27,346 bases of DNA from Sphingobium sp. Lineage in GTDB: Bacteria > Pseudomonadota > Alphaproteobacteria > Sphingomonadales > Sphingomonadaceae. Position 1 is the stretch's first letter, and each line of letters starts with the position of its first letter. The position numbers were made by a program, and so were the translations under genes. The stretch is from NCBI GenBank assembly GCA_017745115.1, contig JAGIAA010000039.1, forward strand, positions 1-27,346, written 5' to 3'. Of the stretch, positions 4,365 through 20,772 are shown piece by piece. The notes below the pieces were generated by a model. The model ran no database searches and had not been told where the DNA came from. It was given only the letters and a program-made list of their open reading frames with translations.

Positions 4365-4682
4365 GGCGCGGTCCAGCGGCTGTAGAAGGCGGTGCAAGTG
4401 GGCAGCCGGACGACCCAAGGCTTTGCTGCCGGTCTTTTCCTCAAATATCAATTCGCTGCTTCTGCGGCGCACCCGGCCAACTTGCCTAAAACGCGTTCAA
4501 ATTCGCGCAGGCGGACACGCGAGCGAAATACGTAAAAGGACGTATTAGTAGATCGCCTGCCCAGCCCGATAAGCGGCCCTGCGGACAAAACCTCTACTCA
4601 ATCATTGACCGGCAATCGTCCTTCGACCGGAAGCGCCGTCCAAGCTGAGCGAGGCCGCACATCGTGAAAAACGGGGTGGGGC
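4365..4682 (+). other. Intergenic region upstream of the first amine oxidase operon
   Basis: A 318-base stretch with no credible gene. It is locally more AT-rich than the genes around it, and its clearest signal is the palindrome at 4527-4546 (listed separately). No convincing terminator for the upstream SDR operon and no unambiguous -35/-10 pair were found. The run GGGGTGGGG just before the ATG at 4683 is the best ribosome-site candidate. Confidence 0.6.
4527..4546. promoter_or_regulatory. Palindromic operator candidate ATACG-N8-CGTAT (site A)
   Basis: A perfect inverted repeat, AATACG (4527-4532) and CGTATT (4541-4546) with 8 bases between, about 136 bases upstream of the first amine oxidase. 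The same 5-base arms with the same spacing occur between the TonB receptor and RidA genes at 17409-17428, and with one mismatch at 9373-9392. Two-fold symmetry suits a dimeric LuxR-type response regulator such as the one encoded at 18140-19069. The assignment to that regulator is inferred. Confidence 0.6.
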
Positions 4683-6275
4683 ATGGATGAAGATAATCGC
4701 TCGACGATGAGCAAGCGCGATCTGCTGGCCATGATCGGCCGAACGGCTGGCGCGACAGCAATGTACATGGCCATGAACAGCCTCGGCCAGGCGCAGGCTT
4801 CGACGTTCAAAGGGCCGATCAAGCTTGAAGGCGCTCCCAAGGGACAATCCGTGCTCATCCTCGGCGCCGGCGTCGCCGGTATGACGGCCGCGCTCGAACT
4901 CAGCCGCGCCGGCTACAACGTCCAGGTGCTGGAATATAATGATCGCGTCGGAGGCCGCTCCTGGACGCTACGCGGCGGCGACACCTATACCGAACTGGGC
5001 GGCGCGACGCAGCGCTGCGAGTTCGCTCCCGGAAATTACATCAATCCGGGGCCGTGGCGCATTCCATGGCACCATCATGGCCTCATTCACTATTGCCACG
5101 AGCTCGGCGTCGGCCTCGAGCCGTTCATGCAGGTGAACTACAACGCCTACATCCATGACACCAAGAAATTTGGCGGAAAACCCCAGCGATTCCGGCACAT
5201 TCAGGCCGACTATTATGGCTATGTCGGTGAGCTGCTGTCCAAATCGGTCAAGAAGGGCGCGCTCGACGATGCGGTCTCCAAGGAAGACGGCGAACTCCTG
5301 CTCGAATCCCTGCGCAGCTGGGGCGGGCTCGACAAGAACTTCCGCTATGTGAAGGGGCGCGAGTCCAGCAACCGCCGGGGCTGGGACAAGGAGCCGGGCG
5401 GCGGCCTGTCGGCCGAACCCATTCCCTCCGACCCCATGTCGGTCGAAACAGTGCTTCGCTCGGGCATGTGGCGTCAACTCGGCGGTAATCTGAGTTGGGA
5501 TCACGAGTTCACGATCTTCCAGCCCGTGGGCGGCATGGGCATGGTCGCGAAGGGGTTCGAGAAGGCCGTCGGTCACCTGGTGCGCCTCAACAGCAAGGTG
5601 ACCAACATCAAGCAGGGCGACGCCGGCGTCACCGTAAACTATGTCGACACGAAGACGGGCGCGAAGGGGAGCGCGAGCGCAAACTATTGCATTTGCACGA
5701 TCCCTCTGCCGATCCTGGCCCAAATCGAAATGAATGTCGGAGCGGACCTCGCCGCCGCCATTCGGGCCATACCCTATTCCACCAGCGTGAAGGTCGGCCT
5801 CGAATTCAAGCGCCGGTTCTGGGAGCAGGACGACAAGATCTATGGCGGTATCAGCTATACGGATCTGCCGAACAGCCAGATCAGCTACCCCAGCAGCAAT
5901 TACGGCGCGACCGGCCCCGGCGTTCTGCTCGGCGCCTATACGGGCGGCGCGGCGGGTTTCGAGCTGACGGCCATGTCGCCGGAAGACCGTATCGCGCGTG
6001 TACTCGATTGGGGCTCGCAGATGCATCCGCAATACAAGGCCGAGTTCATGAACGGCATTTCCGTGGGATGGCACCGCGTGCCCTGGGTGCTGGGTTGCTT
6101 CGGACAATGGAGCGAGGAGGCCCGTGCGAGCCACTACAAGAACCTCTGCGCCATGGACGGACGTATCCTCCTCGCCGGCGAGCATGCTTCTTACTACGGC
6201 GGCTGGCAGGAGGGCGGTATCACCTCCGCGATCGACGCGATCACGAGGCTCCATCAACATGTTCTGGCGAGTTAA
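4683..6275 (+). CDS. Flavin amine oxidase, LAAO-like, Tat-type N-terminus (copy 1)
   Basis: A 530-residue flavin amine oxidase. The N-terminus MSKRDLLAMIGRTAG (from residue 9) looks like a Tat signal with Lys-Arg instead of Arg-Arg. The FAD dinucleotide motif GAGVAG is at 61-66, the ribose-binding Glu is Glu84, GGRSW follows at 90-94, and the C-terminal FAD motif LAGEHASYYGGWQEG starts at 498. NPGPWRIP (Arg126) and the SYP motif (Tyr402) align by eye with the carboxylate-binding Arg and Tyr of snake-venom L-amino acid oxidase. The likely reaction is FAD-dependent oxidation of a C-N bond to an imine. A cytochrome c gene starts 4 bases downstream, suggesting that the electron acceptor is cytochrome c, as for NicA2 with CycN. 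It is more divergent than the two minus-strand copies. An in-frame ATG at 4707 is an alternative start without a clear ribosome site. Confidence 0.88.
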   Translation: MDEDNRSTMSKRDLLAMIGRTAGATAMYMAMNSLGQAQASTFKGPIKLEGAPKGQSVLILGAGVAGMTAALELSRAGYNVQVLEYNDRVGGRSWTLRGGDTYTELGGATQRCEFAPGNYINPGPWRIPWHHHGLIHYCHELGVGLEPFMQVNYNAYIHDTKKFGGKPQRFRHIQADYYGYVGELLSKSVKKGALDDAVSKEDGELLLESLRSWGGLDKNFRYVKGRESSNRRGWDKEPGGGLSAEPIPSDPMSVETVLRSGMWRQLGGNLSWDHEFTIFQPVGGMGMVAKGFEKAVGHLVRLNSKVTNIKQGDAGVTVNYVDTKTGAKGSASANYCICTIPLPILAQIEMNVGADLAAAIRAIPYSTSVKVGLEFKRRFWEQDDKIYGGISYTDLPNSQISYPSSNYGATGPGVLLGAYTGGAAGFELTAMSPEDRIARVLDWGSQMHPQYKAEFMNGISVGWHRVPWVLGCFGQWSEEARASHYKNLCAMDGRILLAGEHASYYGGWQEGGITSAIDAITRLHQHVLAS

Positions 6276-6279
6276 GATC

Positions 6280-6708
6280 ATGAAGATACACGCATTCGCT
6301 CTCGCCATGGCAGGCATGAGCCTGGGTTGCATTCCGGCTTCGACGAGCGCGCAGACCAAGGCCGCCGCAAGTTCCGATGACGCGGCGGACGGCGCTTTCG
6401 TCGGGCGATCGACGTTCGGCGAGCCGACGGGAGAAGCGTTCTTTCGGCGGGTTTGCGCAGCATGCCACATGCCGGACGCAAAAGGGGCAGAGGGGGCCGG
6501 CCACTATCCGGCACTTGCCAGCAACCCGAAGCTGAAGGCCCCCACCTATCCGGTCTATGTCATCCTGCATGGGCTGAACGGGATGCCCGCCATCGGCGAC
6601 ATGATGACCGACAAGCAGGTCGCGGACGTCACCAACTATCTCCGCACGAATTTCGGCAACAAGTACAAGGACAAGGTGAGCGAGGCCGACGTAAAGGCGG
6701 TGCGCTGA
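6280..6708 (+). CDS. Exported monohaem cytochrome c, partner of amine oxidase 1
   Basis: A 142-residue class I c-type cytochrome. The start at 6280 is chosen because it follows the oxidase TAA by 4 bases and opens directly into a signal peptide (MKIHAFALAMAGMSLGC, cleavage probably near Ala24). The haem motif is CAACH (Cys59, Cys62, His63), and the GMP motif supplies Met102 as the probable sixth ligand. A helical C-terminal segment (DKQVADVTNYLRTNF) completes the fold. It should be a periplasmic one-electron carrier. The tight coupling to the amine oxidase argues that it takes electrons from that FAD and passes them to the respiratory chain. A terminator hairpin lies 43 bases downstream. Confidence 0.9.
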   Translation: MKIHAFALAMAGMSLGCIPASTSAQTKAAASSDDAADGAFVGRSTFGEPTGEAFFRRVCAACHMPDAKGAEGAGHYPALASNPKLKAPTYPVYVILHGLNGMPAIGDMMTDKQVADVTNYLRTNFGNKYKDKVSEADVKAVR

Positions 6709-6751
6709 CCGGAAACGGTCCCCAGCATGAGGCTGGCCCAGAATGAACATT

Positions 6752-6787: not shown

Positions 6788-6901
6788 AGTTTCACGCTGC
6801 TGTGTCAGACCGTGTCCGCCCCCGTCGCGAGACCGGTCGTAGACTCGAGCTTGTTGCATGAGCAGCAGCCGAGCGCTTTTCGGCTTCCGGCAGATCTGAA
6901 T

Positions 6902-6995
6902 CGTCATTGCGAGCGGCGAGGTCGCGCGGCGATCCAAGCCTGTCTTGAACTCACCTGGATTGCTTCGCCCGGCATGCGCCGGGCTCGCAATGACG
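6902..6995. repeat. Dispersed palindromic repeat unit (CGTCATTGCGAG...CTCGCAATGACG)
   Basis: The terminal inverted arms CGTCATTGCGAG (6902-6913) and CTCGCAATGACG (6984-6995) are perfect complements. Inside them, GATCCA (6931-6936) and TGGAT (6956-6960) also pair. A nested hairpin GCCCGGC-ATGC-GCCGGGC fills 6967-6984. Units ending in ATTGCGAG/CTCGCAATGACG are widespread noncoding repeats in bacterial genomes. The unit lies between two convergent genes, the usual place for such elements. Copy number in this genome is not visible from the window. Confidence 0.7.
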
Positions 6996-7022
6996 AACGG
7001 TTCAATATCAGTGGATCAGCCT

Positions 7023-8672
7023 CTAGATCTCGTTGGCCTTCGCGAACCTGGCGATGAAATCGCCGGCGCGGAATGCCAGCGCCTCGATCGTCTGCGTCGG
7101 CTGGCCGCGGCCGGACGTCACCATGCTCGATCCGTCGCAGAGAAAGAGGTTCTTCACGTCGTGCGTGCGGTGATATTTGTCGATCACCGACGTCTTCGGG
7201 TCGTTGCCCATGCGGCATGTGCCGAGCAGATGCACCCCACCGCTGGCCGCATCGACATCGCCAGGGACGATCTCCTTGGCGCCCGCTGCGTCCATGATCT
7301 CGACCGCACGCTGCACCTGCCAGGCGGCATGCTTCATGTCGTCCGGATGGTCCTTGTAGGTGACGCGCATCGCCGGAATGCCCCAGTCGTCCTTCAGCTC
7401 GGGATCGATGTCGACGCGGTTATTCTCCTGCGCCAGCGACGTGCCGTGGCCCGAGCAGTTCATCCAGTAGGTGTAGGATTCGAGATAGTCCTTGAATCCC
7501 GGGCCCCAGGTCGGCGTCCCCTCAGGCACATTCTGCCCCCAGGTCAGCGGTCCGCCGGAGCGGGCATCGAAGCCGCCGCCGCCATAGAAGCCGCGCTTCG
7601 GGTCGCTGTCGTAATAATCGTGGATGACGCGCGTGACGTTGGCGCCCTTATATTCGTTGAGCGGATGCTCAAACCGCGCCGCCGCACCGCCACCCTTATT
7701 GAACATGAGGTAGCGCCCGACCACGCCGCTGCTGTTCGCCAGGCCTTGTTCAAAGCCGTTGGTGGCGGAGTTCAGCAGTAGTTTCGGCGTCTCCGATCCG
7801 TTGGCGCAGACCACCACGGCGCGCGCCTTCTGGAACTGTTCCTTCTTGTCGCGGTCGAAATAATGGACGCCGGTCGCGCGCCCCTGTTTGCTCATGCCGA
7901 TGCGGAACACATAGCTCTCGGAGCGCACCTCGCAGCGCCCGGTCGCTTCGGCTTCGGGGATGACGGTCCATACCGACGAGGACTTGGCCATGATCTCGCA
8001 GCCGAAGCCGCCGCAGAGGCCGCATTGCGCGCAAGCCGGGCGGTTCTTGTAGAAGATCGAGTTGATTGCCATCGGCGCCGGATAGGGGTGCAGGCCGAGC
8101 TTGCGGCCGCCGCGCTCGAACAGCACGCCCGACGCCTTCACCGGCAAGGGCGGCATCGGATAGGGCTTGCTGCGCCACGGATCGAACGGACTGGCGCCCG
8201 CGAGACCTGAGACGCCGACCTCCCATTCCACCTTGGTATAATAGGGCTCGAGTTCGGCATAGGTGATCGGCCAGTCGACCAGGCTGGCGCCCGGGATGCC
8301 GCCATATTTGCTGCCCTCGATGAAGTCGACTTCGTGCAGGCGCCAGAAATTGGCGTTGAAGTGTGCGCTGCTGCCGCCGACGATGCGCGCATAGGTGAGC
8401 GGATTGCGGCCGGCCACGCGCTCGGCCTTCTGGCTGGGGTCGCGGCGGAAGCTCTGCGGATTGGTCGCCGGATTGTTGGTGATCCCCGAGAGCTGGCGGT
8501 ATTTCAGCTCGTCATGCTCGAAGTCGCCCGGCTCCATGCGCGGGCCCTGTTCCATGACGACGACGCTGTTGCCGGCCCGCGCCAACTCCCGCGCCATGAT
8601 GCCGCCGGAGGCGCCGGAGCCGACGACGATGAAGTCCACTGTCTCGCTGGTCTTGTATTTCTTGCTGGGCAT
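7023..8672 (-). CDS. GMC-family FAD oxidoreductase (gluconate/glucose dehydrogenase-type large subunit)
   Basis: A 549-residue GMC oxidoreductase. The FAD motif GSGASGG is at 18-24 and the VGGSSAHFN flavin region at 98-106. A cysteine group CAQCGLCGGFGC (Cys214, 217, 220, 225) lies where membrane-type sugar dehydrogenases carry an iron-sulphur cluster. The catalytic His481 sits in HLLGTCRMG. The second active-site residue, normally Asn or His about 43 residues later, is Gln524 (GRGQPTQTIEALA), which is unusual. There is no signal peptide of its own. The small subunit encoded 12 bases upstream has a Tat signal, so export as a complex (as known for FAD-glucose dehydrogenase) is likely. It would oxidise a sugar, polyol or other alcohol in the periplasm. 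No cytochrome subunit is encoded in this operon. A ribosome site GGAG precedes the ATG. Confidence 0.9.
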   Translation of the reverse strand: MPSKKYKTSETVDFIVVGSGASGGIMARELARAGNSVVVMEQGPRMEPGDFEHDELKYRQLSGITNNPATNPQSFRRDPSQKAERVAGRNPLTYARIVGGSSAHFNANFWRLHEVDFIEGSKYGGIPGASLVDWPITYAELEPYYTKVEWEVGVSGLAGASPFDPWRSKPYPMPPLPVKASGVLFERGGRKLGLHPYPAPMAINSIFYKNRPACAQCGLCGGFGCEIMAKSSSVWTVIPEAEATGRCEVRSESYVFRIGMSKQGRATGVHYFDRDKKEQFQKARAVVVCANGSETPKLLLNSATNGFEQGLANSSGVVGRYLMFNKGGGAAARFEHPLNEYKGANVTRVIHDYYDSDPKRGFYGGGGFDARSGGPLTWGQNVPEGTPTWGPGFKDYLESYTYWMNCSGHGTSLAQENNRVDIDPELKDDWGIPAMRVTYKDHPDDMKHAAWQVQRAVEIMDAAGAKEIVPGDVDAASGGVHLLGTCRMGNDPKTSVIDKYHRTHDVKNLFLCDGSSMVTSGRGQPTQTIEALAFRAGDFIARFAKANEI

Positions 8673-8684
8673 GGGGGCTCTCCG

Positions 8685-9314
8685 TCAGGCCATGTAGGGC
8701 TTGGTGCCGGGATAGGGTTCGAACCCCGCATAATCCTGGTCGTAATAGCCAAAGGGCGGCGCCCAGACGTGGTTGTCCTCCACACCGAGCAGCTTCCAGC
8801 CCAGATTCTCGTGATTGCCGCCATATTTGGGCAGGGCGATGAGGCCGACGATGGTCAGCCGGCGCACGGCGAGGAAGAACGGCGTCTCCTCGACCTCGCG
8901 CAGCCAGGCGATTTGCACAGGCTCGCTCGCCGCGGAGAAGGGCTTTCCGCTGCCCAGCCGCTTGGCATAAGCCGCCTGGAAATCGGCCAGTCCCTTGCGG
9001 AAGGCCGGCAACTGCGCCGCGAAGAAACTGCCGAGCGCATTGTCGATGAAATAGATGACCTTCGCGTCCCGCGCGCCGGGCGTCTCGCCCCCAGGCACGA
9101 TCAGATTCGAAATGGCGTCGACCTCGGCGGCCTCGGCGGCGGTCAGCGTCTTGATCGTCGTCGGACCGGCCGACATGTCCATATTATGACCGGCGTGATC
9201 CGCTTGTTCGGCCGCCGCCGCGATCTGCGGCCAGTTCAACGTGATCCAGGCCACGCTGGCAAGGTTGCCGACGGCGGTCAGGAACTGGCGACGCGAAGGA
9301 ATTTGTTCTGCCAT
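8685..9314 (-). CDS. Gluconate 2-dehydrogenase subunit 3-like protein (Tat-exported small subunit)
   Basis: 209 residues from the ATG at 9314, chosen because GGAG stands upstream and the N-terminus then begins MAEQIPSRRQFLTAVG, a classical twin-arginine Tat signal (Arg8-Arg9) with a hydrophobic segment to about residue 35. A His/Met-rich stretch (HAGHNMDMSAG, 40-50) follows. The family signature TPGARDAKVIYFID is at 78-91, and the C-terminal PFGYYDQDYAGFEPYPG segment is aromatic. In related dehydrogenases this subunit carries the FAD subunit across the membrane by the hitch-hiker route. It is first in a two-gene operon with the GMC subunit. Candidate operator site B lies 59-78 bases upstream of the start. 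Confidence 0.9.
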   Translation of the reverse strand: MAEQIPSRRQFLTAVGNLASVAWITLNWPQIAAAAEQADHAGHNMDMSAGPTTIKTLTAAEAAEVDAISNLIVPGGETPGARDAKVIYFIDNALGSFFAAQLPAFRKGLADFQAAYAKRLGSGKPFSAASEPVQIAWLREVEETPFFLAVRRLTIVGLIALPKYGGNHENLGWKLLGVEDNHVWAPPFGYYDQDYAGFEPYPGTKPYMA

Positions 9315-9856
9315 AGCTACTCCGAATCCGGCCCGAATACGGGCGATTTCAGCGTCGCAAGACACGGCGAGGAATACGGCAAACTGCGCATTGACGGGGA
9401 GGGTTAGGCGCGAAGAAAGGGCCGGTAGCCCCCAGCGGCAACGGTAGGCATTTCTTAAATATTGGCCGGCCGGGATTTCGCCGGAACATACCGCAAGGCG
9501 CCCAGCTTTCTTTAGGATCCATGCGATTCAGCGGCGCCGGCGGTCCGGCGGAAAGAAATTCAGAGAAGATATATTATTTCAATCGGTTGGGAGCGTTGAA
9601 GGCGCTCACAGCGAGCCTTTGATGAGCGTCGGTCTAGGGCCGGATGCAAATTGTCACGCTGTGTTGCAGCATCGAAAAATGGCTGTTTTCTGCGGTGCAG
9701 CGACGATTGTCACTTGTAGATACCCTTGGCCGCGCCTAAGTGCGCCGCCAAGCGCGGATGAGAACGCTGACAGGTCTGGCTCGAGCGATCGGGATGCAAA
9801 CCTGATGTCAGGACCAGAACCACTCAGATCCGAAATCAAGTTCCAGGAGAAGCCCT
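9315..9856. other. Intergenic region between divergent GMC operon and UrcA gene
   Basis: About 540 bases with no credible gene. It must hold the promoters of the minus-strand GMC operon and the plus-strand UrcA gene. It contains operator candidate site B (9373-9392), an AT-rich patch around 9565-9580, and a direct repeat ATTGTCAC at 9650-9657 and 9706-9713 of unknown meaning. No clear sigma-70 promoter could be fixed. Confidence 0.6.
9373..9392. promoter_or_regulatory. Palindromic operator candidate AATACG-N8-CGCATT (site B)
   Basis: This has the same layout as the perfect sites at 4527-4546 and 17409-17428: 6-base arms separated by 8 bases, with a single mismatch (CGCATT instead of CGTATT). 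It sits 59 bases upstream of the GMC small-subunit start, a suitable place for an activator site. It is weaker evidence than the two perfect copies. Confidence 0.45.
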
Positions 9857-10168: not shown

Positions 10169-10185
10169 TCTGACCGTTTCCGGTT

Positions 10186-10230
10186 AAAAGGCGCGTCCTC
10201 CCGAAGCGGGAGGGCGCGCCTTTTCTTTTT
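10186..10230. terminator. Strong bidirectional intrinsic terminator
   Basis: A near-perfect 18-bp stem (AAAAGGCGCGTCCTCCCG with its complement, one G-T pair) and loop AAG, followed by TTTTCTTTTT. The A-run at the left foot gives a U-run on the other strand as well. It therefore probably terminates both the UrcA gene and the convergent minus-strand operon ending at 10241. Confidence 0.9.
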
Positions 10231-10240
10231 AAACGGCCGT

Positions 10241-11830
10241 TCAGGCCGCCAATGCCCTTTGATGCAGCCGCTGTATGGCATCGAGGGAAGAGAGCAGGGC
10301 GCCTTCCATCCAGCAGCCATAATAAGAGGCATGCTCGCCCGCGAGGACGATGCGGCCATCCATGGCGACCAGATTTTGGTAGTGCTGGGCGCGGCTCGCC
10401 TCGGTCCAGCTGCCGCAGCAGCCGAGGATCCAGGGCGCCCGGCTCCATGCCCACGAGACTCCGTTCATGAACTCCTTGCGGTATGAATCGGGGTGGAAGA
10501 CCGATCCCTGCGCCAATGCCGCTTCGATGCGCTGCGCGGGAGTCATGCCGCCAAGCTTGAGGCCGCCCGCACCGCTCGCGAAGGCGCCGAGGAGCACCGC
10601 CGGCTTATCCTTGAAGAAGTCGAAATTCGGGTAGGACACCAGCGAGATGTCCTGATCGGTGAAGCTGTGCCCGCCATAGATGGAGGAATCTTCCTCCCAG
10701 AAACGGCGCTTCATTTCGAGGCCGATCTTGACCTGTCCGCTATAGGGAACGGCCTTTATGGCGGCTTTCATCGGCGCGCTCACTTGGGGGTCGATCTGCG
10801 AGAGGATCGAGAGAGGTATGGTGCAGACGCAATAGTCGGCCTTGTCCTCGGTCACCTTGCCGGTCTTGATGTCTTCCCAGGTGACGGTGACGCCGGCGCC
10901 ATCCTGCGCAATTTTCGAAACCTTGGCGTTCAATGTGATCAGGCCGGCCAATTGCTTGGCGAAGCCCTTGCCGATCATGTCCATGCCGCCTTTGGGCTGG
11001 AACATCGTGGTCTGCATCACATAGTTGAAATAGAAGCCCATCTGCGACCAGACCTTGGAGTCCAGCACGTCGCTGAGGCTATTGATCTTTGACGGCGTCG
11101 GCGCACCGCCGACGCCGCCTCCGGGCGCACGGTCATAGCCCCGCGCGCCCGAAGCTGTGAGCCCACTGGTATATTTAAGGTCGCCGTCGAGCAGTCCCCA
11201 CTCGCGCAGGGCGGCGATGAGGCGCTCCTTGTCCTCCTTGCTCACTTGCGCATCGAGCGCCCCTGCGTTCAGCGACTTGGATAGGAGTTCGGAGACGTGG
11301 CCCTTATAGTCGACGGCCAGTTCCTTGTAGCGTTGCGGCTTGCCGCTGAAGGCCTTGGTCTGATGGACGAAGGCGTTGTGGTTCATCTGGATGAACGGCT
11401 CGAGCTCGACGCCGAACGCCTTGCAATAATGCAGGAGCGTGCGGTGGTGATGCGGGATGCGCCATGGCCCGGGATTGAGGTAATTGCCGGGCTGGAACTG
11501 GCAGGTCTGCGTCGCGCCGCCGACTTCCGTGAAGGTGTCGCCGCCGCGGATCGAGTAATTGCGGCCGCCAGGGCGGTTCTGATATTCGAGGACCTTGACC
11601 GTATAGCCCGCCTTGCGCAGTTCATAGGCCGCCAGCATGCCGGCCAGGCCGGCGCCAAGGATCAGCACCTTCGCGCCCTTGCGCGCGCCGGAGAGGACCG
11701 GCGGCCCGCTGAACTGGGTTTCGGCGGCATGGCCGAGCGCGGTCATCGCCTGGTACATGGCGAGCGCGCCGCCCGCCTTGCCGATCATCGTCAGGATCTG
11801 GCGGCGCGAAGGGCCATTTTCCTCGAACAT
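10241..11830 (-). CDS. Flavin amine oxidase, LAAO-like, Tat-exported (copy 3)
   Basis: 529 residues from the ATG at 11830, preferred over an upstream in-frame start because GGGGGA lies just before it and the protein then opens with a Tat motif (SRRQILTMIGKAGG, Arg9-Arg10). FAD motifs are GAGLAG (59-64), Glu82, PGGRNYS and the C-terminal LAGEHASYYGCWMEG, which has Cys where copies 1 and 2 have Gly. Arg124 in GPWRIP and Tyr in VSYPN match the LAAO substrate-carboxylate residues by eye. The sequence is very close to copy 2 (12316-13908) along its whole length, including long identical DNA runs, so the two are tandem duplicates separated by a cytochrome c gene. It is the last gene of the operon, just before the terminator at 10186-10230. 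The role is periplasmic amine or amino-acid oxidation to an imine; the substrate is unknown. Confidence 0.88.
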   Translation of the reverse strand: MFEENGPSRRQILTMIGKAGGALAMYQAMTALGHAAETQFSGPPVLSGARKGAKVLILGAGLAGMLAAYELRKAGYTVKVLEYQNRPGGRNYSIRGGDTFTEVGGATQTCQFQPGNYLNPGPWRIPHHHRTLLHYCKAFGVELEPFIQMNHNAFVHQTKAFSGKPQRYKELAVDYKGHVSELLSKSLNAGALDAQVSKEDKERLIAALREWGLLDGDLKYTSGLTASGARGYDRAPGGGVGGAPTPSKINSLSDVLDSKVWSQMGFYFNYVMQTTMFQPKGGMDMIGKGFAKQLAGLITLNAKVSKIAQDGAGVTVTWEDIKTGKVTEDKADYCVCTIPLSILSQIDPQVSAPMKAAIKAVPYSGQVKIGLEMKRRFWEEDSSIYGGHSFTDQDISLVSYPNFDFFKDKPAVLLGAFASGAGGLKLGGMTPAQRIEAALAQGSVFHPDSYRKEFMNGVSWAWSRAPWILGCCGSWTEASRAQHYQNLVAMDGRIVLAGEHASYYGCWMEGALLSSLDAIQRLHQRALAA

Positions 11831-11879: not shown

Positions 11880-12314
11880 TCAACAGGTGGCGCAATCGCG
11901 CGGTGAAGATTGAATGGTCTTGGCGAGCCGCTGGATGTCCGCTTCGGTGACCGGGTCGGCATAGGCATTGAAGTGGCCGCGCACGTAGGTCGCCACGGCA
12001 GCCATCTGCTTGGGCGTCAATATGTCCGTGAACCAGGGCATCCCACCGCGGCCCTTCAGCAGGATCGTCGGCAGGAAATCCTTGTCTGCTAGATTGGCAT
12101 TGCCGGCGAGAGCCGGAATGTTGGCGCCGGCGCCGCTGGCGCCCTTAGCGTCCGCCATGTGGCAGGCCTGGCAGATGGATTCGTAGACATCCTTGCCTTC
12201 GCTCGACACTTGGGCGCCACCGCCTCCTCCGGAGGTGTCCTGGGCCCGCGAGGCAACGGAACCGACGAGCATGACCGCGGCCAGCATCAGAGGCGCAATT
12301 GGTTTCACGGTCAT
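11880..12314 (-). CDS. Exported monohaem cytochrome c between amine oxidases 2 and 3
   Basis: 144 residues. The start at 12314 is chosen because the ATG follows the amine oxidase 2 TGA by one base and begins a signal peptide (MTVKPIAPLMLAAVMLVGSVASRAQ). The haem motif is CQACH (Cys48, Cys51, His52), the probable Met ligand is Met92 in GMP, and the C-terminal helix is TPKQMAAVATYVRGHF. It is clearly related to the cytochrome at 6280-6708. A Gly-rich linker lies at 29-33. The C-terminus ends CATC (Cys141, Cys144), a pair absent from the other cytochrome that could form a disulphide. Its position between two oxidase genes suggests it is the shared periplasmic electron acceptor. Confidence 0.9.
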   Translation of the reverse strand: MTVKPIAPLMLAAVMLVGSVASRAQDTSGGGGGAQVSSEGKDVYESICQACHMADAKGASGAGANIPALAGNANLADKDFLPTILLKGRGGMPWFTDILTPKQMAAVATYVRGHFNAYADPVTEADIQRLAKTIQSSPRDCATC

Positions 12315-13976: not shown

Positions 13977-14477
13977 TCAGGGCGCCTTGGCAACCATCGC
14001 CTCGATCTCGACGAAGGTCGTGGGCCGGCCGAGCGCGGCGACCTGGACGGTGGACCGGGCCGGGCGGTTGGGTTGCTCGGGCGTGCCGAAGAAGGTTTTG
14101 AACACGTCGTTCATGCCGGCCGAGTCCATGCGACCGCCGGGCGTTGGCGCGACGAGAAAGACATTCATCTTGACGATGTCACCCATGCCCAAGCCCATGC
14201 CCTCGAGCGTGGCCTTAATCTTGGTAAGGATGCTTTTGGTCTGGGTCGCCGTGTCCCCGAACTCATCCGGCTTGGCTGGGTCGACGGGCGAGGCCGTGCT
14301 GCCGGAAAGCATGACGATGCGGCTGCCCGCTGGGATGTCGACGGAGCTGGAGATGACGGCGGTCGGGCTTGCGACGACGCGCGTGATGGCTGGCTTGGGT
14401 TTTGCTGGCGTGGCGGCCTGACTGGCAATAGCCATCATGGCGGTGGCCACAACGGCGGTGATCGGCTTCAAGGTCAT
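13977..14477 (-). CDS. Exported RidA-family (imine/enamine deaminase) protein 1
   Basis: 166 residues from the ATG at 14477, chosen for the GAGGAG upstream and because it opens with a signal peptide (MTLKPITAVVATAMMAIASQAA). The RidA/YjgF fold follows from about residue 33. VMLSGSTASPVDP is the first conserved strand, and PARSTVQVAAL supplies Arg141, the equivalent of the carboxylate-binding Arg105 of E. coli RidA. FVEIEA supplies the acidic residue Glu157. RidA proteins form trimers and hydrolyse imines and enamines to carbonyl plus ammonia. Most are cytosolic; an exported form next to Tat-exported oxidases suggests it acts on their imine product in the periplasm. It lies between the TonB receptor and amine oxidase 2 in the same operon. 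Confidence 0.88.
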   Translation of the reverse strand: MTLKPITAVVATAMMAIASQAATPAKPKPAITRVVASPTAVISSSVDIPAGSRIVMLSGSTASPVDPAKPDEFGDTATQTKSILTKIKATLEGMGLGMGDIVKMNVFLVAPTPGGRMDSAGMNDVFKTFFGTPEQPNRPARSTVQVAALGRPTTFVEIEAMVAKAP

Positions 14478-14537: not shown

Positions 14538-14541
14538 GAGT

Positions 14542-17259
14542 TCAGAATTTGAGGGCGATGCGAGCGTAATAATAGCCGCCCTTGGTGCCATAGGGGCCGA
14601 ACGTGTAGGGCGCGCCGAGGCTGCCCTGGCCGTTGATGTAGGGCGAGCGCCCGGCCTGCCATCCGGCCGCGGGGCTGGAGACGTTATAGTCGGCGACCAG
14701 CGGCGGAACCTCCGGGATCTTGTTCAGGAGGTTGTTGGCGCCAACCGAGAGGTTGAGCCACTTGGTGATGTCGTAGCCAAGCTCGAGATCGAAGATCACA
14801 GCTGGGTCCACGACGGCCTGGTAATAGCCATTCGTCGCACTGCCGATCGGCCGTGGCGTCGTCGAGAAGGCATTGGGCTGAACGAGCGAGGTGGTCTTGC
14901 TGTAATAGGTCGCGCGCAAGTTCGCGTTGAACGGACCGTTGGTGAAGTTGATGCCGGCCACGCTCTTGAACGTGGGGCTGGCTTTCTCGATGATCGCCTG
15001 GGCCTGGATGTTGAACAGTGTGCCGAGGCGGTTATCCGTCACCTTGGTCTTATTGTAATTGGCGTTGAAGGTGAGGTCGAGCTTACCGAAGCTCGTGGTG
15101 ATCGGGTAACGCGCCGAGAATTCGAGACCCCAGGTCTCGGTATCGATGCCATTGGTGAAGGTCTGGATTGCGAGGCTGCCTGATGACAGCACCGTGGGAT
15201 CAAGCTGCTTGCCGCTCGCGGCGATCGCGTTGAGGACGAGTTGATAAGGGGTCAGACCGTTGATGAGCGGCGTCGTAACCGGCGTGCCCGGCAACGGAAC
15301 AGGCTGCGAGTTCTGGCCCGTGATGCTGCCCGACGACACAATGCGGTCCTTGATCTTGATATAGTAGCCGTCCAACGTGACGATCATTCGCGGAATGGGC
15401 CGCACGACGACACCCGCCGAGAAGTTGGTCGACTTTTCCGGCTTGAGAGCGCCGAAGCCGGCACTCGTCGCGCCGGGCGAACTGGGGGCGAGCTGGATGG
15501 TTGCGCTGGTCGGGCCAACGTTAGTTGCCGAGTAGCCCGATTCCGGTAGCGACGGCGCACGGAAGCCGGTGCTGACCGTGCCGCGGACCGCGATGGTATC
15601 CGTGATGTCATAGCGGCTGGTCAACTTGCCGATAAAGGTGTCGCCGAAGTCGCTGTATTTTTCATAACGACCGGCCAGGTCGACGCTCCAGTCGGCGACC
15701 GGCTTGACGATCACATCCGCGTAAACGGCTTTTGCGTTGCGGCCCAGCGTGCCCGCGTCGCTCTTTGCGTAACCAGGGAAGGATTGTCCGCCCTCGATAT
15801 AGGTCGAGCCAGCGTCGCCCGCGCCGATCTGATAGGTTTCCTTGCGATATTCGCCACCAAAGGCGAGGGTCAGCGGATCGGACAGACCGACTTCGATTTC
15901 CTTGCGCAGGTCGAGTGTGGTCGTGAACTGGGTAAAGAGGAACTGGCCGTCATAGAAGTCGGTTGGCGAGAAAGCGCCAGCCTGTCCCGCCGCGGCAGCC
16001 GCAGTCTGAGTGGCGCCTGCTCTGCGAGCGGCGCTATAGGCGTTGAAGAAGCTGTTCGACCACATCGAGGCGTTTAACGACTTTGTCGTAAAGACCTTTG
16101 CGAGGTCTTCCGAATAGCTGACGGCGAGATCCCAGTTGAAGCCGCCAAGGTCGCCCTTTACGCCGTTGGTGACCTGGAATTCCTGCTGCTTCACTTCGAT
16201 GTGGGGGATCATGCCGAAAGCGAGGGCCGGCCCGTAGCAATAGGCCGGATCGGTCGGCAGGTTGGCGTTCGTAATCGGGTCCTTATAGCTCGACCCCGAG
16301 GTGCAGACGCGGCTTGGAACGCGGTAGCCCTGCAGCGCATCGCCATGACGGTATGAGACGTCGCCAAAGGAGTAGAGCTCTACGCCTCCGAAATCATAGC
16401 CGAAATTGTAGAAGCCGATGTTCAGCATCGACTTGGGCTGGCCGCCGTTGATGTGGGACGTGCCATTATTAGCGACCAGCGCGTTGTAGATGGGTTGGAA
16501 TCCGGTAGGCGTGCCGGAATTGATCGTGCCATTGTAGTTCTTTACCGTGATCTGACCCTCGCCGAGCGTCGTCCACTCGTTGCGGCGGTGGAAGAGGCTG
16601 ATGTCTAGGTAGCCCGAGTCACCGATCGCGAAGCCGAGGTTGGTGCTGGCGCTGTAGGTCGTGCCTTCGCCGTCATAATATTGGCCGACGCTGCCGGTGA
16701 CCTTGCCGCCCGAGGTGTCGCTCTTAAGAATGATGTTGATGACGCCGGCGATCGCGTCCGAGCCATATTGGGCGGCGGCGCCGTCCTGAAGGATTTCGAT
16801 ACGCGAAACGATGTCCGGGGGGATGAGATCGATGCTTGGCGAGGCAGAGCCGCCGAACGCGCCGTTGATCACCTGAAGGATCGAGTTGCCGTGCCGACGC
16901 TTGCCATTGACCATGACCAGCGTGTGGTTGGGGCTGATGCCGCGCAGGCGGGCGGACAGCGAGAAGCTCGCCATGTCCGTGCCCTGGTTCTGGGCCTGGA
17001 AGGACGGGACGAGCTGCGTCAATGCCTGATTGAGATTGGGCTGTCCCACTTTCGAGATTGCATCCGCGCCGATAAGCTGGATCGGCGCTGCGCTGTCGGC
17101 GGCCTGCATGCCGGTCGCGCGCGTGCCGGTCACGATGATTTCGCCGGGCTCCGCGGCGGGCTCGGCCTGGGGCGCTGTCTCGGTCTGGGAAAGGGCCATG
17201 CTTGGCAGCGCGACCGTGGCGAAGAGCAGGGCATGGATCAGCCTGCGGCTGGTAATCAT
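14542..17259 (-). CDS. TonB-dependent outer membrane receptor
   Basis: 905 residues. The signal peptide spans about 1-24 (MITSRRLIHALLFATVALPSMALS). A TonB-box-like EIIVTGTRA lies at 40-48, and the plug domain follows to about residue 180, with the typical LxRLRGISPNHTLVMVNGKRR and RIEILQDGAAAQYGSDAIAGVINI segments. The 22-strand barrel ends in the canonical terminal Phe (YYARIALKF). There is no N-terminal STN domain, so no sigma/anti-sigma signalling is expected. It imports a substrate across the outer membrane using TonB energy. As first gene of the operon with RidA, amine oxidases and cytochrome c, it probably brings in the compound they oxidise. AGGGGGA precedes the ATG. Operator site C lies 150-169 bases upstream. 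Confidence 0.93.
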   Translation of the reverse strand: MITSRRLIHALLFATVALPSMALSQTETAPQAEPAAEPGEIIVTGTRATGMQAADSAAPIQLIGADAISKVGQPNLNQALTQLVPSFQAQNQGTDMASFSLSARLRGISPNHTLVMVNGKRRHGNSILQVINGAFGGSASPSIDLIPPDIVSRIEILQDGAAAQYGSDAIAGVINIILKSDTSGGKVTGSVGQYYDGEGTTYSASTNLGFAIGDSGYLDISLFHRRNEWTTLGEGQITVKNYNGTINSGTPTGFQPIYNALVANNGTSHINGGQPKSMLNIGFYNFGYDFGGVELYSFGDVSYRHGDALQGYRVPSRVCTSGSSYKDPITNANLPTDPAYCYGPALAFGMIPHIEVKQQEFQVTNGVKGDLGGFNWDLAVSYSEDLAKVFTTKSLNASMWSNSFFNAYSAARRAGATQTAAAAAGQAGAFSPTDFYDGQFLFTQFTTTLDLRKEIEVGLSDPLTLAFGGEYRKETYQIGAGDAGSTYIEGGQSFPGYAKSDAGTLGRNAKAVYADVIVKPVADWSVDLAGRYEKYSDFGDTFIGKLTSRYDITDTIAVRGTVSTGFRAPSLPESGYSATNVGPTSATIQLAPSSPGATSAGFGALKPEKSTNFSAGVVVRPIPRMIVTLDGYYIKIKDRIVSSGSITGQNSQPVPLPGTPVTTPLINGLTPYQLVLNAIAASGKQLDPTVLSSGSLAIQTFTNGIDTETWGLEFSARYPITTSFGKLDLTFNANYNKTKVTDNRLGTLFNIQAQAIIEKASPTFKSVAGINFTNGPFNANLRATYYSKTTSLVQPNAFSTTPRPIGSATNGYYQAVVDPAVIFDLELGYDITKWLNLSVGANNLLNKIPEVPPLVADYNVSSPAAGWQAGRSPYINGQGSLGAPYTFGPYGTKGGYYYARIALKF

Positions 17260-17428: not shown

Positions 17429-17464
17429 GCGCGGGAAACGGCCTCTCCGTAGCCAGATTGGGCT

Positions 17465-18181
17465 ATGAAAAGTCTCATTTTTGCACAGGGTCCAGGGGAT
17501 CGTTTCCGCATCAGCCGTTCGATTTTGGCGGCATCGCTCGCAGCCCTATGGGCGGCTGCACCCGCCCAGGCAGATGTGGCTCGCATCAAGGGAAATCCCA
17601 ACGCTCTGATCCTCGACGGCGTCCGGGTCAGCGACGACATGGAAACCTTCTATCTCTCCGGGCAACTGGCCTCGCCGGTCGATCCCAAGAAGCCCATGGC
17701 CGAGGTCAAGAGCGTCGAGGAGATGGGCGACAGCAAGGCCCAGACGATCAGCGTGCTGGGCAAGATCAAGACTCTGCTCGAAGCGCAGGGTTACAAGATG
17801 TCGGACCTCATCAAGCTGACCCTGTTCGTCGCGGCTGACCCAAAGACCGGCAAGATGGACTTCGCGGGTGTCAACGATGGGTTCAAGCAGTTCTTCGGCA
17901 CAGCCGAGAACCCCAACACCGTCGCGCGCTCGACCTTCCAGGTCGCGGCCTTGGTGGGCCCCTATTATCTGATCGAGATCGAGGCGATCGCGGCGAAGAA
18001 GAAGACCAATGCGCTGAGCGACGCCATCATCGAGCGGTTCAAGATGCCGCTCGAACGGCAGGGCGAAACCGAGAGTATCGAGCCGGCAAAAGACGAAACG
18101 ACGCCCGGCTTCCGCCCTGCCGAACGCCGCAAGCGGCCCTCACTGGTCGATAATGCGAATGGCGACCGCCGCCGCGGCTGA
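17465..18181 (+). CDS. Exported RidA-family protein 2 with C-terminal extension
   Basis: 238 residues. The N-terminus has a signal peptide after a long basic n-region (RSILAASLAALWAAAPAQA, cleavage near Ala36). The RidA core (about 45-177) is closely related to RidA 1: LSGQLASPVDP, then VARSTFQVAAL with Arg155, and LIEIEA with Glu171. Unlike RidA 1 it continues for about 60 more residues, charged and probably disordered, ending RRKRPSLVDNANGDRRRG. No strong ribosome site was seen before the ATG. It is divergent from the TonB receptor operon and likely under the same operator. Its last 42 bases overlap the 3' end of the response regulator on the other strand. The expected role is hydrolysis of periplasmic imines. 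Confidence 0.85.
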   Translation: MKSLIFAQGPGDRFRISRSILAASLAALWAAAPAQADVARIKGNPNALILDGVRVSDDMETFYLSGQLASPVDPKKPMAEVKSVEEMGDSKAQTISVLGKIKTLLEAQGYKMSDLIKLTLFVAADPKTGKMDFAGVNDGFKQFFGTAENPNTVARSTFQVAALVGPYYLIEIEAIAAKKKTNALSDAIIERFKMPLERQGETESIEPAKDETTPGFRPAERRKRPSLVDNANGDRRRG

Positions 18182-19069
18182 GCGGGTTTCGACGCCGATC
18201 TTGTCGAAGATGCGCTCGAGATGTTTCGTAACCGTGCGCGGGCTGATCTGCAGGACGTCGCTGATCACCCGGTTGGGTTTGCCATAGCTCACCCATAGCA
18301 ACACCTGCGCTTCGCGGTTCGTCAGTGGCAGCCGATCCTGCAGCCGCGCGAGATCCTCATTCGGATTGAGCTCGTTGATGCGGATGAGCACTTCGTCCTC
18401 GCGATAATGAGCGACGACCATCAGCTCCAGTTCGCCGTCTCCACCATTTTGTTTCACGCGCACCGCGGCGCCTGCCGCTGCGCTCATCGCCAGGAGACGT
18501 TCGATCTGGCTGCGCATGTCGAGGGGCAGCTGAGGATCCTCGCGGCGCCAGTTGGGGGCGATGCGGCTGATGGCCTGTTCCGCCCGTGGCGTGCACCAGA
18601 GCAGATTGCCGCGCGCATCGGTTGCGAGGATCAGGCGGTCGGTGGCGTCGAGGCTGGTGATGCTGGCCTGGACCGCGCGGCCCTGCGCCATGTGGACGCG
18701 CACGCGCGCGAGCAGTTCGTTGAGATCGACGGGTTTGCGCACATAGTCGACGCCGCCGACCTCGAAGGCTTCGACGACATGCTCGCTCTGGGTGAGGCCG
18801 GTCATGAAGATGACAGGTATATTCGCGGTCGCGGGCCGCGCCTTGATCTTCTGTGTCGTCTCGAAGCCATCCATCCCCGGCATGACCGCATCCATGAGGA
18901 TGAGATCGGGCACGATGTTGCCGAGCAGTTCGAGCGCGGCCTCGCCGGAGGTCGCCACCAGCACGGACATCTCGGCGCGTTCCAGAACGCTCGTCAACAT
19001 GCGCAGCGCATCGGGCTCGTCGTCGACGACAAGGATCGTGTCGGAATGGGCGGGTAGCTGCGGGATCAT
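18140..19069 (-). CDS. LuxR-type response regulator (REC, PAS-like middle, HTH)
   Basis: 309 residues. A receiver domain spans 10-128 with acidic pocket Asp16-Asp17, phosphoacceptor Asp60, Thr90 and Lys112. A middle segment (about 135-240; ATDARGNLLWCTPRAEQAI) looks PAS-like. A LuxR/NarL-type helix-turn-helix lies at about 248-302 (LPLTNREAQVLLWVSYGKPNR, then ISPRTVTKHLERIFDKIGV). Its start overlaps the stop of the kinase gene (ATGA), so the two form a coupled operon and almost certainly a cognate pair. It is the best candidate to bind the ATACG-N8-CGTAT sites near the receptor, oxidase and GMC genes; this is inferred from proximity and symmetry. Confidence 0.9.
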   Translation of the reverse strand: MIPQLPAHSDTILVVDDEPDALRMLTSVLERAEMSVLVATSGEAALELLGNIVPDLILMDAVMPGMDGFETTQKIKARPATANIPVIFMTGLTQSEHVVEAFEVGGVDYVRKPVDLNELLARVRVHMAQGRAVQASITSLDATDRLILATDARGNLLWCTPRAEQAISRIAPNWRREDPQLPLDMRSQIERLLAMSAAAGAAVRVKQNGGDGELELMVVAHYREDEVLIRINELNPNEDLARLQDRLPLTNREAQVLLWVSYGKPNRVISDVLQISPRTVTKHLERIFDKIGVETRSAAAAVAIRIIDQ

Positions 19070-20772
19070 CGGTCAGGTCTTTCAGTCAGCAGTTTCGCCA
19101 TGCCGGCGAGGTCGTAGCGGTCGAGGCAATTATAGAGGCGGCGGATCAGCGCGTCCGATCCGGGATCGGCCTGTTCGAGAGCCTTGATCTCGCTCTCGAT
19201 GCCGCGCGCATATCCGATCCGGAGATACTCCTGCAGGCGCGTCACATGGGGCAGGGCATCATCGCAGAACATCGGTGGGCTCTGGCGGGCTGGGGCGATC
19301 TCGGCCGCCGGCTCATCCCACTCCCAGACGAGGCCGAGCAATTCGCCGATCGTATCGGCAAGCGTCTCGAACTCGACCGGTTTTACCAGGAAGCGGTCAT
19401 GGGCAGGCGTTTCGAAATCCGGGCGATGCAGTTCCTCGCTATTGGCGGAGAGCATCAGGATTTGCACGTCCTCGCCAAAGCGCCTGCGCAGTTCCGCGCC
19501 CACTTCCCATCCTGACATGCCGGGCAGGCTGATGTCGAGGATGGCGAGATCGGGCGTCGTGTCGCCCAGCGCTTCGATCGCCCTTTCACCGGACGGGAGC
19601 GCGCTGACCGCGAGACCGAGAGATGTGAGAAGCTGCGCCATGAAGAAGCGCTGATCCGAGTTGTCCTCGACAAGGAGGACGCTGCGCTGCCGTCCTTTGT
19701 AGCCGAGCAGCTTTCGCGTCGCCGCGGGCACGGTCACGCGGCCTGTCACTTCGCTGAGCAGCATAGTGATCCGGAAGCAGCTTCCGTGTCCGACTTCGCT
19801 TTCCAGCTCGAGCCGGCCGCCGAGAATCTCGACGATCGTGCGCGCAATGGCCAGACCCAGCCCAGCGCCGGACTTGGCGCGCGTGCCGGAGGCCTCATGC
19901 CGGGCTGCCGCGCCTTGTTCGAAGCGTTCGAAGATGCGCTCATGATCCTCCGCCCGAATGCCAGGCCCCGTATCGCGCACCTCGAAAGTCGCGATCTGCG
20001 CCGCGTAGCTGACCTTCAGCGTCACCGAGCCGTGCTCGGTAAACTTGATGGCATTGGAGAGCAGGTTGATGAGCACTTGCCGGAAACGGCTGGGATCGAG
20101 CCTCACGACATCCGGCATGCGCGCCGGCGGCTCATAGTGGAAGGCGAGGCCCTTCGAGATCGCCGACGGCCGCATCATCGAGACGATCTGGTCCATGAAC
20201 GGTCCGAAACGCACTTCCTCTGTCCGCACCCGAAGGACACCGGATTCGAGCTGCGATATGTCGAGCAGACCCTCGACCAGATTGGCGAGATGCTCCGAGC
20301 AACGCAGGATCACGCGGGCCGCCTCCTGGGCGTTGACGCCGTCGCCGCGCTCGAAGAGTTGGGCATAGCCATAGATGGCGTTGAGCGGCGAGCGGATCTC
20401 GTGGCTGACATTGGCGAGATAGCGGCTCTTGGCGATGCTGGCGTTTTCCGCTGCCTGCTTGGCGCGCATTAGCTCGGTCCGCTCTTCCTGGCCCGTCGCT
20501 TCGGTCGCTGGTTGGCTTTGCGCGCGACGCAGGCCGAACGAGGCTGCGAGCACGAGCCCCAGCAGATCGGCGCTGGTCAGGAGCTCGAGCAGTTCATCGT
20601 CGCCCTCCGTAGCGACGTCCAGGGCGAGAAGGATGCCTGCGCCTATGCTCGCCACCAGCATGAAAGCCAGAACGAGCCGAAGAGTGACCGCTTTGGAGAA
20701 CGGGTGCGCGGTCTTTTGCGTCTCCGAGATTTGACCGTCGCTGCGGCCTTGCGAAGACGCCGGCATCATCAT
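19066..20772 (-). CDS. Hybrid sensor histidine kinase
   Basis: 568 residues. Two hydrophobic segments (about 29-51 and 61-80) are separated by only about ten acidic residues, so there is no periplasmic sensing domain. A short coil leads to the dimerisation/phosphoacceptor domain (NVSHEIRSPLNAI, His124). The HATPase domain follows with Asn240 (NLLSNAIKF), DTGPGI at 267-272 and GLGLAI at 304-309. A receiver domain lies at 363-480 with Asp413 and Lys464. A C-terminal helical tail (490-568) has no recognised phosphotransfer His motif. It starts with three consecutive ATG codons, so the exact start is uncertain by two residues. It is transcribed ahead of the response regulator with a 4-base overlap. 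Confidence 0.92.
   Translation of the reverse strand: MMMPASSQGRSDGQISETQKTAHPFSKAVTLRLVLAFMLVASIGAGILLALDVATEGDDELLELLTSADLLGLVLAASFGLRRAQSQPATEATGQEERTELMRAKQAAENASIAKSRYLANVSHEIRSPLNAIYGYAQLFERGDGVNAQEAARVILRCSEHLANLVEGLLDISQLESGVLRVRTEEVRFGPFMDQIVSMMRPSAISKGLAFHYEPPARMPDVVRLDPSRFRQVLINLLSNAIKFTEHGSVTLKVSYAAQIATFEVRDTGPGIRAEDHERIFERFEQGAAARHEASGTRAKSGAGLGLAIARTIVEILGGRLELESEVGHGSCFRITMLLSEVTGRVTVPAATRKLLGYKGRQRSVLLVEDNSDQRFFMAQLLTSLGLAVSALPSGERAIEALGDTTPDLAILDISLPGMSGWEVGAELRRRFGEDVQILMLSANSEELHRPDFETPAHDRFLVKPVEFETLADTIGELLGLVWEWDEPAAEIAPARQSPPMFCDDALPHVTRLQEYLRIGYARGIESEIKALEQADPGSDALIRRLYNCLDRYDLAGMAKLLTERPDR

Follow-up and report, generated by a model that had tools for sequence, protein, structure and literature searches.

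A conserved Sphingobium gene set that may couple periplasmic L-amino-acid dehydrogenation to cytochrome c and an exported Rid protein

In Gluconacetobacter diazotrophicus the lao-cccA-ridA operon (GDI2456-2454) joins the gene of an L-amino-acid oxidase (LAAO) to those of a cytochrome c and a RidA protein (Rodrigues et al. 2016, PMC5053998; statements on papers cited by PMC number refer throughout to the parts of each text that were available to us). A Tn5 insertion in lao abolished auxin production, left tryptophan unused and stopped its conversion to indole-3-pyruvate, and cytochrome c maturation mutants made 5% of the auxin (Lee 2004, as cited in PMC5053998). Since the cccA and ridA transcripts fell together with that of lao, the lao mutant does not separate the three genes (PMC5053998). 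Here we describe a 27,346-nucleotide stretch of a Sphingobium sp. genome (GenBank assembly GCA_017745115.1, contig JAGIAA010000039.1, positions 1 to 27,346; hereafter the window), which carries these three kinds of gene together with a TonB-dependent receptor and a two-component system.

Two further lines of published work bear on this locus. Among measured flavin amine oxidoreductases (FAOs), a twin-arginine translocation (Tat) signal together with an adjacent cytochrome c (CytC) gene predicted the cytochrome-using dehydrogenases (Akram et al. 2025, PMC12224317). The Rid3 proteins PFL_1385 and PSPTO_3006 are active on iminoarginine and on the imines released by L-amino-acid oxidase (PMC5619798), and the clustering of RidA/Rid3 genes with flavin adenine dinucleotide (FAD) amine oxidase genes in bacterial chromosomes has already been noted (Niehaus et al. 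2015, PMC4433059).

Our comparative analysis suggests, with a probability of about two in three, that the conserved gene set runs a TonB-fed, cytochrome-c-coupled periplasmic dehydrogenation of L-amino acids, the imine being hydrolysed by an exported Rid protein. The receptor would import through the outer membrane either an amino acid or a peptide or small molecule that contains one, and the flavoenzyme would move the alpha-carbon hydride to FAD to give a 2-imino acid. Reduced FAD would then hand its electrons singly to the partner cytochrome c and not to O2, while hydrolysis of the imine by the exported Rid would yield ammonium and a 2-oxo acid in time to keep the imine from reacting or leaving. 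The two-component pair probably induces the operon. The genes concerned are the following.

4683..6275, plus strand: AO1, LAAO-like flavin amine oxidase (PF01593); KR Tat-type signal, equivalent of the carboxylate-binding Arg of LAAOs, Tyr at the 417-equivalent position
6280..6708, plus strand: CYT_A, monohaem cytochrome c with one CAACH motif and a signal-like N-terminus, 4 bases past the AO1 stop
10241..11830, minus strand: AO3, LAAO-like flavin amine oxidase (PF01593) with an RR Tat-type signal
11880..12314, minus strand: CYT_B, monohaem cytochrome c with one CQACH motif and a signal-like N-terminus, 1 base past the AO2 stop
12316..13908, minus strand: AO2, LAAO-like flavin amine oxidase (PF01593) with an RR Tat-type signal; top solved relative RoLAAO (2jae)
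13977..14477, minus strand: RidA_A, Rid3-like imine deaminase family protein (PF01042) with a predicted signal peptide; Arg141 at the catalytic Arg position
14542..17259, minus strand: TonB-dependent receptor, first gene of the main operon
17465..18181, plus strand: RidA_B, second Rid protein (PF01042) with a predicted signal peptide and a C-terminal extension, divergent from the receptor
18140..19069, minus strand: response regulator, REC plus LuxR-type DNA-binding domain
19066..20772, minus strand: hybrid histidine kinase with HisKA, HATPase and REC domains and, by eye, membrane segments at its N-terminus

The main operon thus reads receptor-RidA_A-AO2-CYT_B-AO3 on the minus strand, with gaps of 64, 68, 1 and 49 bases; the coordinates of AO3 are those of an internal ATG start, the longest open reading frame beginning at 11968. 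Each cytochrome gene runs in the same direction as its adjoining oxidase gene, and AO3 shares CYT_B with AO2. A first-pass annotation of the window had described three Tat-type flavin amine oxidases, two monohaem cytochromes tightly behind them, two RidA proteins with signal peptides, a receptor heading the main operon and a two-component system next door. This inventory stands, with the correction that the Tat motif of AO1 is KR and not RR.

Recurrence, gene orders and sister loci

The neighbourhood is conserved in related genomes. We scored an order sample of 147 Sphingomonadales genomes (best 10 candidates per genome) and a class sample of 289 Alphaproteobacteria genomes (best 5 or 12 candidates), depths at which an absence is not proof. 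In the order sample 25 genomes have the oxidase and 38 have a Rid gene at the cutoff set beforehand (E 1e-20), the latter comprising 24 of the 25 oxidase genomes versus 14 of the 122 others (p 9.4e-17; all Fisher tests here ignore genome relatedness). With E 1e-25, a cutoff picked after seeing the list, the contrast is 24/25 versus 1/122 (p 2.7e-25, or 8.9e-24 minus the two centre genomes). Oxidase and Rid genes lie no more than 5 kb apart in 20 of these 24 genomes and on different contigs in the other four (G076, G125, G131 and G142). In the class sample 16 genomes have the oxidase, 10 Rid and 9 both (9/16 versus 1/273, p 3.3e-12; p 9.1e-10 without G001 and G015), and all nine pairs fall within 5 kb. 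Among the 14 class-level oxidase loci fetched (all but those of G001 and G015), the cytochrome is present in seven, six of which have Rid, as against one Rid in the seven loci without it (p 0.03).

The surroundings were compared in 79 fetched loci, which come from the best 80 of at least 575 confirmed and are therefore biased to close relatives. In 76 of the 79 the oxidase has a haem-motif cytochrome next to it; of the three loci without a scored one, two are cut contigs (L027, L073), and in the third, L028, a cytochrome can be recognised by eye. Of the loci above 20 kb, the 44 not titled Caulobacterales include 35 with a strong Rid, 15 with two Rid, 28 with a receptor and 19 with kinase and regulator. 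At the same score limits none of these was found in the 13 Caulobacterales-titled loci of that length.

The order of the genes varies. Receptor-Rid-oxidase-cytochrome-oxidase is found in the window and some close relatives, and receptor-Rid-cytochrome-oxidase in others. A distant clade has oxidase-cytochrome-Rid, sometimes with a second Rid (L083, L085, L087-L089, L091, L093-L096). Oxidase-cytochrome-Rid also occurs in L102, L113, L115, L126-L129 and L132, preceded by a receptor in the Caulobacter locus L102, and Rid-receptor-oxidase-cytochrome occurs in L114 and L117. A TonB receptor stands beside Rid in other lineages too (L081, L092, L102, L104, L106, L114, L117). On plasmids, where seven regions among 47 Rid-bearing records were opened, five show oxidase-cytochrome-RidA (Comamonas, Microvirga, Ketogulonicigenium, Sulfitobacter and Paracoccus), every RidA with a signal. 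The Sphingomonas parapaucimobilis region has oxidase-receptor-RidA with no cytochrome annotated, and on Komagataeibacter xylinus pGX5 (L130, 2236-5396) an integrase and IstB lie directly upstream of cytochrome c and Rid, in the usual place of the oxidase. Such independent gene orders argue for a joint function better than one conserved string would.

That these genes only adjoin one another, each serving a periplasmic redox or housekeeping role of its own, is highly improbable in our view. Parts do occur singly in some genomes (G102, G115, G300), and 7 of the 16 class-level oxidase genomes lack Rid. Against this stand the co-occurrence in both samples (p 9e-17 at the preset cutoff in the order, 3e-12 in the class), the co-localisation in different gene orders, the 1-base and 4-base gaps in the window, and the joint fall of the lao, cccA and ridA transcripts in the G. 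diazotrophicus lao mutant (PMC5053998). Chance neighbourhood was rejected on the genome samples, as the window arrangement recurs in other genomes, and the gene set is real and conserved, its members probably co-operating.

Sister loci add enzymes that the window lacks. Nine close loci (L001:1002-2282 and eight more) encode a DAO-family FAD protein with a Tat signal and eight loci a further cytochrome, mostly just upstream of the kinase; the FAD protein is mostly next to a cytochrome c gene. In this protein the C-terminal motif of D-amino-acid oxidase (DAAO), HNYGHGGSGWSLSWG, precedes the N-terminal FAD-binding motif, so that it is apparently a circularly permuted DAAO-like enzyme; its AlphaFold model (mean pLDDT, the predicted local distance difference test score, 55.2) is too weak to confirm the permutation. 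Sphingobium-type loci carry two kinds of Tat-signal aminotransferase, one of class I/II that is related to PtaA (7 loci; NF051461 at 326.9 bits for L016, where the cutoff is 500) and one of class V (7 loci). A third Rid, likewise with a signal peptide, is present in 8 loci. These genes lie directly behind the oxidase-cytochrome pair (L016:11991-13733, L019:11978-14824, L030, L033, L037, L038, L040, L041); by the gene calls, L016 is without the class V gene and L038 without the class I/II gene. The added enzymes of the sister loci broaden the argument for a pathway of amino acids in the periplasm.

Other arrangements were also seen. In three stretches a receptor stands beside a signal-bearing Rid with no oxidase in what was fetched (L100:224-6410, L104:6497-9922, L106:911-4242), which suggests a receptor-Rid unit of its own. 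In distant relatives, four to six LAAO-like genes stand in tandem (G061:C55 54784-65198, L090; G042:C14 66937-75293, L086; G058:C74; and G102:C161, L109); neither cytochrome nor Rid was found in L086, L090 and L109.

Substrate and electron acceptor of the flavoenzymes

The three window enzymes match PF01593 with E values from 4e-63 to 1e-53. The top solved match of AO2 is the Rhodococcus L-amino-acid oxidase RoLAAO (2jae; 285 bits, E 1.2e-83), followed by animal LAAOs. Among 60 of the 122 AO2 matches, those listed, none bears the name of a nicotine oxidoreductase and several are named only 'amine oxidase'. Membership of the window enzymes in the NicA2-like group was set aside, their best solved relatives being LAAOs.

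Residues were compared in an alignment of 132 oxidases, 97 close and 35 distant, including the three of the window (one region, the contig of 230,353 bases behind L014 and L110, is counted twice, which affects about 2 of the 132 oxidases and 2 of the 99 Rid proteins discussed below). By eye the N-termini are Tat-like, with TRRDLL in AO2, SRRQIL in AO3 and SKRDLL in AO1. The Arg at motif position 10 is present in 96/97 close and 34/35 distant oxidases. At position 9 the close ones have 89 Arg and 7 Lys, and the distant ones 7 Arg and 27 Lys. Arg124 (in GPWRIP), aligned with the RoLAAO Arg that we take to hold the substrate carboxylate, is invariant (132/132), as is Lys368, near the flavin N5 (132/132) and presumably at the position of NicA2 Lys340. 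At position 417, which we align with the second carboxylate contact (Tyr in LAAOs), the 97 close oxidases have 67 Phe, 27 Tyr, 2 Asn and 1 Leu, AO2 and AO3 being among those with Phe; Tyr is found in AO1 and in all 35 distant relatives. The register there comes from the alignment only, and the pairwise alignment with RoLAAO is ambiguous by one residue. The AlphaFold model of AO2 (mean pLDDT 62.7) was too weak for use.

In AncLAAO-N4 the carboxylate-holding Arg88 is essential (PMC9814856). Because the closest solved relatives are LAAOs and the equivalent of this Arg never varies, alpha-amino acids are the likelier substrates and simple amines less so. The periplasmic route that the first-pass annotation put forward for amines or amino acids fits the comparative evidence. 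The Tyr (AO1) and Phe (AO2, AO3) paralogues probably split the substrate range.

A different possibility is that the set tailors or degrades a specific larger molecule, for example an alkaloid, a peptide or a siderophore imported through the receptor, and does not act on free amino acids. This would agree with the position of the receptor at the head of the operon and beside Rid in other lineages, with the Phe that replaces the carboxylate-contacting Tyr in AO2 and AO3, and with the PtaA-related Tat-signal aminotransferase of the Sphingobium-type loci. In pyoverdine-producing bacteria PtaA and PvdN, Tat-exported pyridoxal phosphate (PLP) enzymes, act in the periplasm in maturation of the siderophore. 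A nicotine cluster also holds genes for Rid, a TonB receptor, cytochrome c and a flavin oxidase (PMC7688666). Yet no peptide synthetase or siderophore gene was found in the 20 window proteins scanned, Arg124 is invariant, no receptor is annotated in the stretches of about 10 kb around five plasmid units, and the published lao-cccA-ridA acts on tryptophan (PMC5053998). We regard a dedicated larger substrate as unlikely; it overlaps with our preferred explanation, and the likelihoods attached to the readings do not sum to one.

As to the acceptor, a Tat signal and an adjacent CytC with a signal-like N-terminus are present in the window, judged by eye and by rule, and the proposed electron transfer to cytochrome c is based on the rule of Akram and colleagues (PMC12224317). 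The flavoenzymes could instead be ordinary O2-using, H2O2-making periplasmic LAAOs with an antimicrobial or nitrogen-scavenging role, the cytochrome only dissipating electrons or handling peroxide. Indeed, their nearest solved relatives, RoLAAO and the snake LAAOs, are oxidases by name, and a fast reaction with O2 was seen in most of the tested Tat-signal FAOs that lack a neighbouring CytC (PMC12224317). The Lys associated with O2 reactivity is kept in 132/132, but dehydrogenases keep it too (PMC12224317). However, the cytochrome adjoins the oxidase in 76 of the 79 loci, the combination of Tat signal and adjacent CytC marked cytochrome users in the published series (PMC12224317), and no catalase or peroxidase domain was found in the 20 window proteins scanned. 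Ordinary oxidases thus appear to us clearly unlikely, and dehydrogenation with cytochrome c as the acceptor is preferred.

Rid export and the weight of the evidence

Both window Rid proteins begin with a hydrophobic N-terminus followed by an AxA-like site, and a cytosolic location, which would have spoken against the proposed route, was rejected for them on these signal-peptide-like N-termini. Our own rule asks for a Met start, an n-region of net positive charge, a hydrophobic core and AxA. It is satisfied by 94 of the 99 Rid proteins scoring above 85 bits and by all nine lower-scoring ones. Of the five exceptions, one (L092) is due to a miscalled start and plainly has a signal. By eye, the Rid proteins of L114, L115, L117 and L126 (with corrected start) carry lipoprotein-type signals, and that of L112 an N-terminal membrane segment. 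The catalytic Arg (Arg105-equivalent) is kept in 99/99. In a search made with RidA_A, the two best PDB matches were the Rid3 members PFL_1385 and PSPTO_3006 (PDB 9bkc, 9bka). A C-terminal extension like that of RidA_B occurs in three close relatives.

Several observations weigh against the reading of the set as a periplasmic dehydrogenation route. The Tat motif of AO1 has Lys in place of the first Arg, and AO2 and AO3 have Phe where, by alignment, LAAOs carry a carboxylate-contacting Tyr; in AncLAAO-N4 the corresponding change, Y446F, lowers kcat/Km about 50-fold (PMC9814856). Export signals were assigned by inspection or with a simple rule and not with SignalP, and in four Caulobacter loci (L065, L066, L068, L072) the Rid lacks a signal and its gene lies 2-4 kb from the oxidase-cytochrome pair, on the opposite strand; the L065 genome also holds the receptor-oxidase-cytochrome-Rid unit L102, whose Rid has a signal. 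Six of the 14 fetched class-level oxidases lack both cytochrome and Rid, and L080, L097, L098 and L116 contain Rid without a neighbouring cytochrome, which shows that the parts can be separated. Only 6 of the 147 order genomes, including the starting points G001 and G002, contain the close oxidase type, and receptor, Rid, cytochrome, kinase and regulator stand together in only 15 of the 57 loci longer than 20 kb. The TonB receptor has no close characterised relative (best PDB match E 6e-14), and the neglect of relatedness in the Fisher tests belongs here too.

Taken with these points, the core mechanism of the gene set is likely, as judged from sequence comparison. A broader proposal is more tentative and, to our minds, a little short of an even chance: in a range of Alphaproteobacteria and at least one betaproteobacterium, the set would be a complete extracytoplasmic amino-acid module in which Rid is a regular periplasmic step. 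Such a module would comprise TonB-gated supply, cytochrome-c-respiring LAAO-type dehydrogenases and exported Rid and, in the sister loci, Tat-exported PLP aminotransferases and a permuted DAAO-like enzyme with its own cytochrome.

Three other features lie between AO1-CYT_A and the main operon or behind the latter.

7023..8672, minus strand: GMC-family FAD oxidoreductase, possibly an accessory periplasmic dehydrogenase
8685..9365, minus strand: gluconate 2-dehydrogenase subunit 3-like protein with an RR Tat-type signal, partner of the GMC protein
10186..10224, no strand: terminator-like hairpin with an 18-bp stem and T-runs, behind the main operon

The GMC and subunit 3 pair (7023-9365, minus strand) separates AO1-CYT_A from the main operon and falls within the range of the first-pass annotation, whose list does not include it; GMC homologues are near the locus in 2 of the 79 loci (L017, L026), with a comparable pair in both. 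The whole scan gave 9 terminator-like sites versus 8.8 in shuffles, so what backs the hairpin at 10186-10224 is only its long stem. The promoter scan gave 3 sites against a shuffle mean of 2.7, which is no excess, and no promoter is therefore claimed. Beside the hairpin lies the gene of an UrcA-family protein (9857-10168; TIGR04433, 42.4 bits, cutoff 25), a family with homologues close to the oxidase in 9 of 79 other loci. A palindromic intergenic repeat with 40-base arms, 70% complementary, is found at 6901-6996 between CYT_A and the GMC gene, and a CEMIP beta-helix domain protein (PF24606), its start possibly incomplete, at 72-1559.

Comparison with described systems

The first-pass annotation had held that no system with this whole set was described, which was too strong: lao-cccA-ridA has the three core genes together with mutant evidence (PMC5053998), and Rid and TonB receptor genes occur together in a nicotine (PMC7688666) and a chitin (PMC9537276) cluster. 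Several partial counterparts can be distinguished.

NicA2, Pnao and other cytochrome-c-using dehydrogenases resemble the window enzymes in combining a Tat-signal flavin amine oxidoreductase with an adjacent gene for a Sec-exported cytochrome c, but that survey began from NicA2 BLAST hits, whereas the window enzymes are nearest to LAAOs, and a word search of its available text gave neither RidA nor TonB (PMC12224317). The Rid3 proteins PFL_1385 and PSPTO_3006 have the conserved Arg in common with RidA_A; in the available text of that paper, by word search, neither periplasm nor signal appears, while the window Rid proteins have predicted signal peptides (PMC5619798). A like search of the text of Niehaus and colleagues gave no cytochrome, periplasm, signal peptide or TonB (PMC4433059).

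The map of the Agrobacterium tumefaciens S33-type nicotine cluster shows Rid, a TonB-dependent receptor, cytochrome c and the flavoenzyme 6-hydroxynicotine oxidase. Its one Tat-exported enzyme is a molybdenum hydroxylase that uses pseudoazurin, the other pathway enzymes being cytoplasmic; its Rid is a Rid6 assigned to the Pno step, its substrate is nicotine, and export of the Rid is not stated in the text at hand (PMC7688666). The ong cluster for chitin oxidation in Pseudoalteromonas prydzensis has two TonB receptors and the essential RidA-family protein OngD (127 residues, export not stated); the deaminase OngC and the deacetylase OngB are cytoplasmic, and the available text mentions no flavin oxidase or cytochrome (PMC9537276). 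In Chlamydomonas the extracellular LAAO LAO1 has a periplasmic RidA partner, LAO2/RIDA, but the system is eukaryotic and H2O2-forming, with no cytochrome mentioned in the parts available (PMC10805672). The PtaA/PvdN route has no LAAO and is not in the window, a PtaA-like relative being present in the Sphingobium-type loci.

The bacterial literature examined, in the parts available, treats Rid as a cytosolic guard against imine damage. If the proposed route is correct, a conserved exported Rid lineage tied to flavin dehydrogenases would extend Rid function to the periplasm, and a family annotated as L-amino-acid or monoamine 'oxidases' would turn out to be respiratory dehydrogenases that make no peroxide. 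It would also explain the need for cytochrome c in G. diazotrophicus auxin synthesis, and suggest what a group of orphan TonB receptors might take up.

In conclusion, the three-gene core and the joint action of its proteins are already published. The G. diazotrophicus operon has, like the window, a Tat-signal, RoLAAO-related LAAO of about 530 residues with a cytochrome c and a RidA, a likeness drawn from published properties, and joint action on an L-amino acid was proposed there as it is here (PMC5053998). It differs in having one oxidase and one RidA, where the window has three oxidases and two Rid, and the only function demonstrated for it is in making indole-3-pyruvate and auxin from tryptophan; in the text at hand a word search gave no TonB, and RidA export is not stated (PMC5053998). 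In the open-licence literature we found no description of an exported bacterial Rid, nor of any link between a TonB receptor and a set of LAAO, cytochrome and Rid. What is apparently new is the conserved export of Rid, the linkage to a receptor, the expansion of the paralogues, and the occurrence of sister loci that add aminotransferases of Tat type or a DAAO-like enzyme of permuted order. On the whole, the Sphingobium locus looks like an enlarged lao-cccA-ridA cluster of a sugarcane bacterium.

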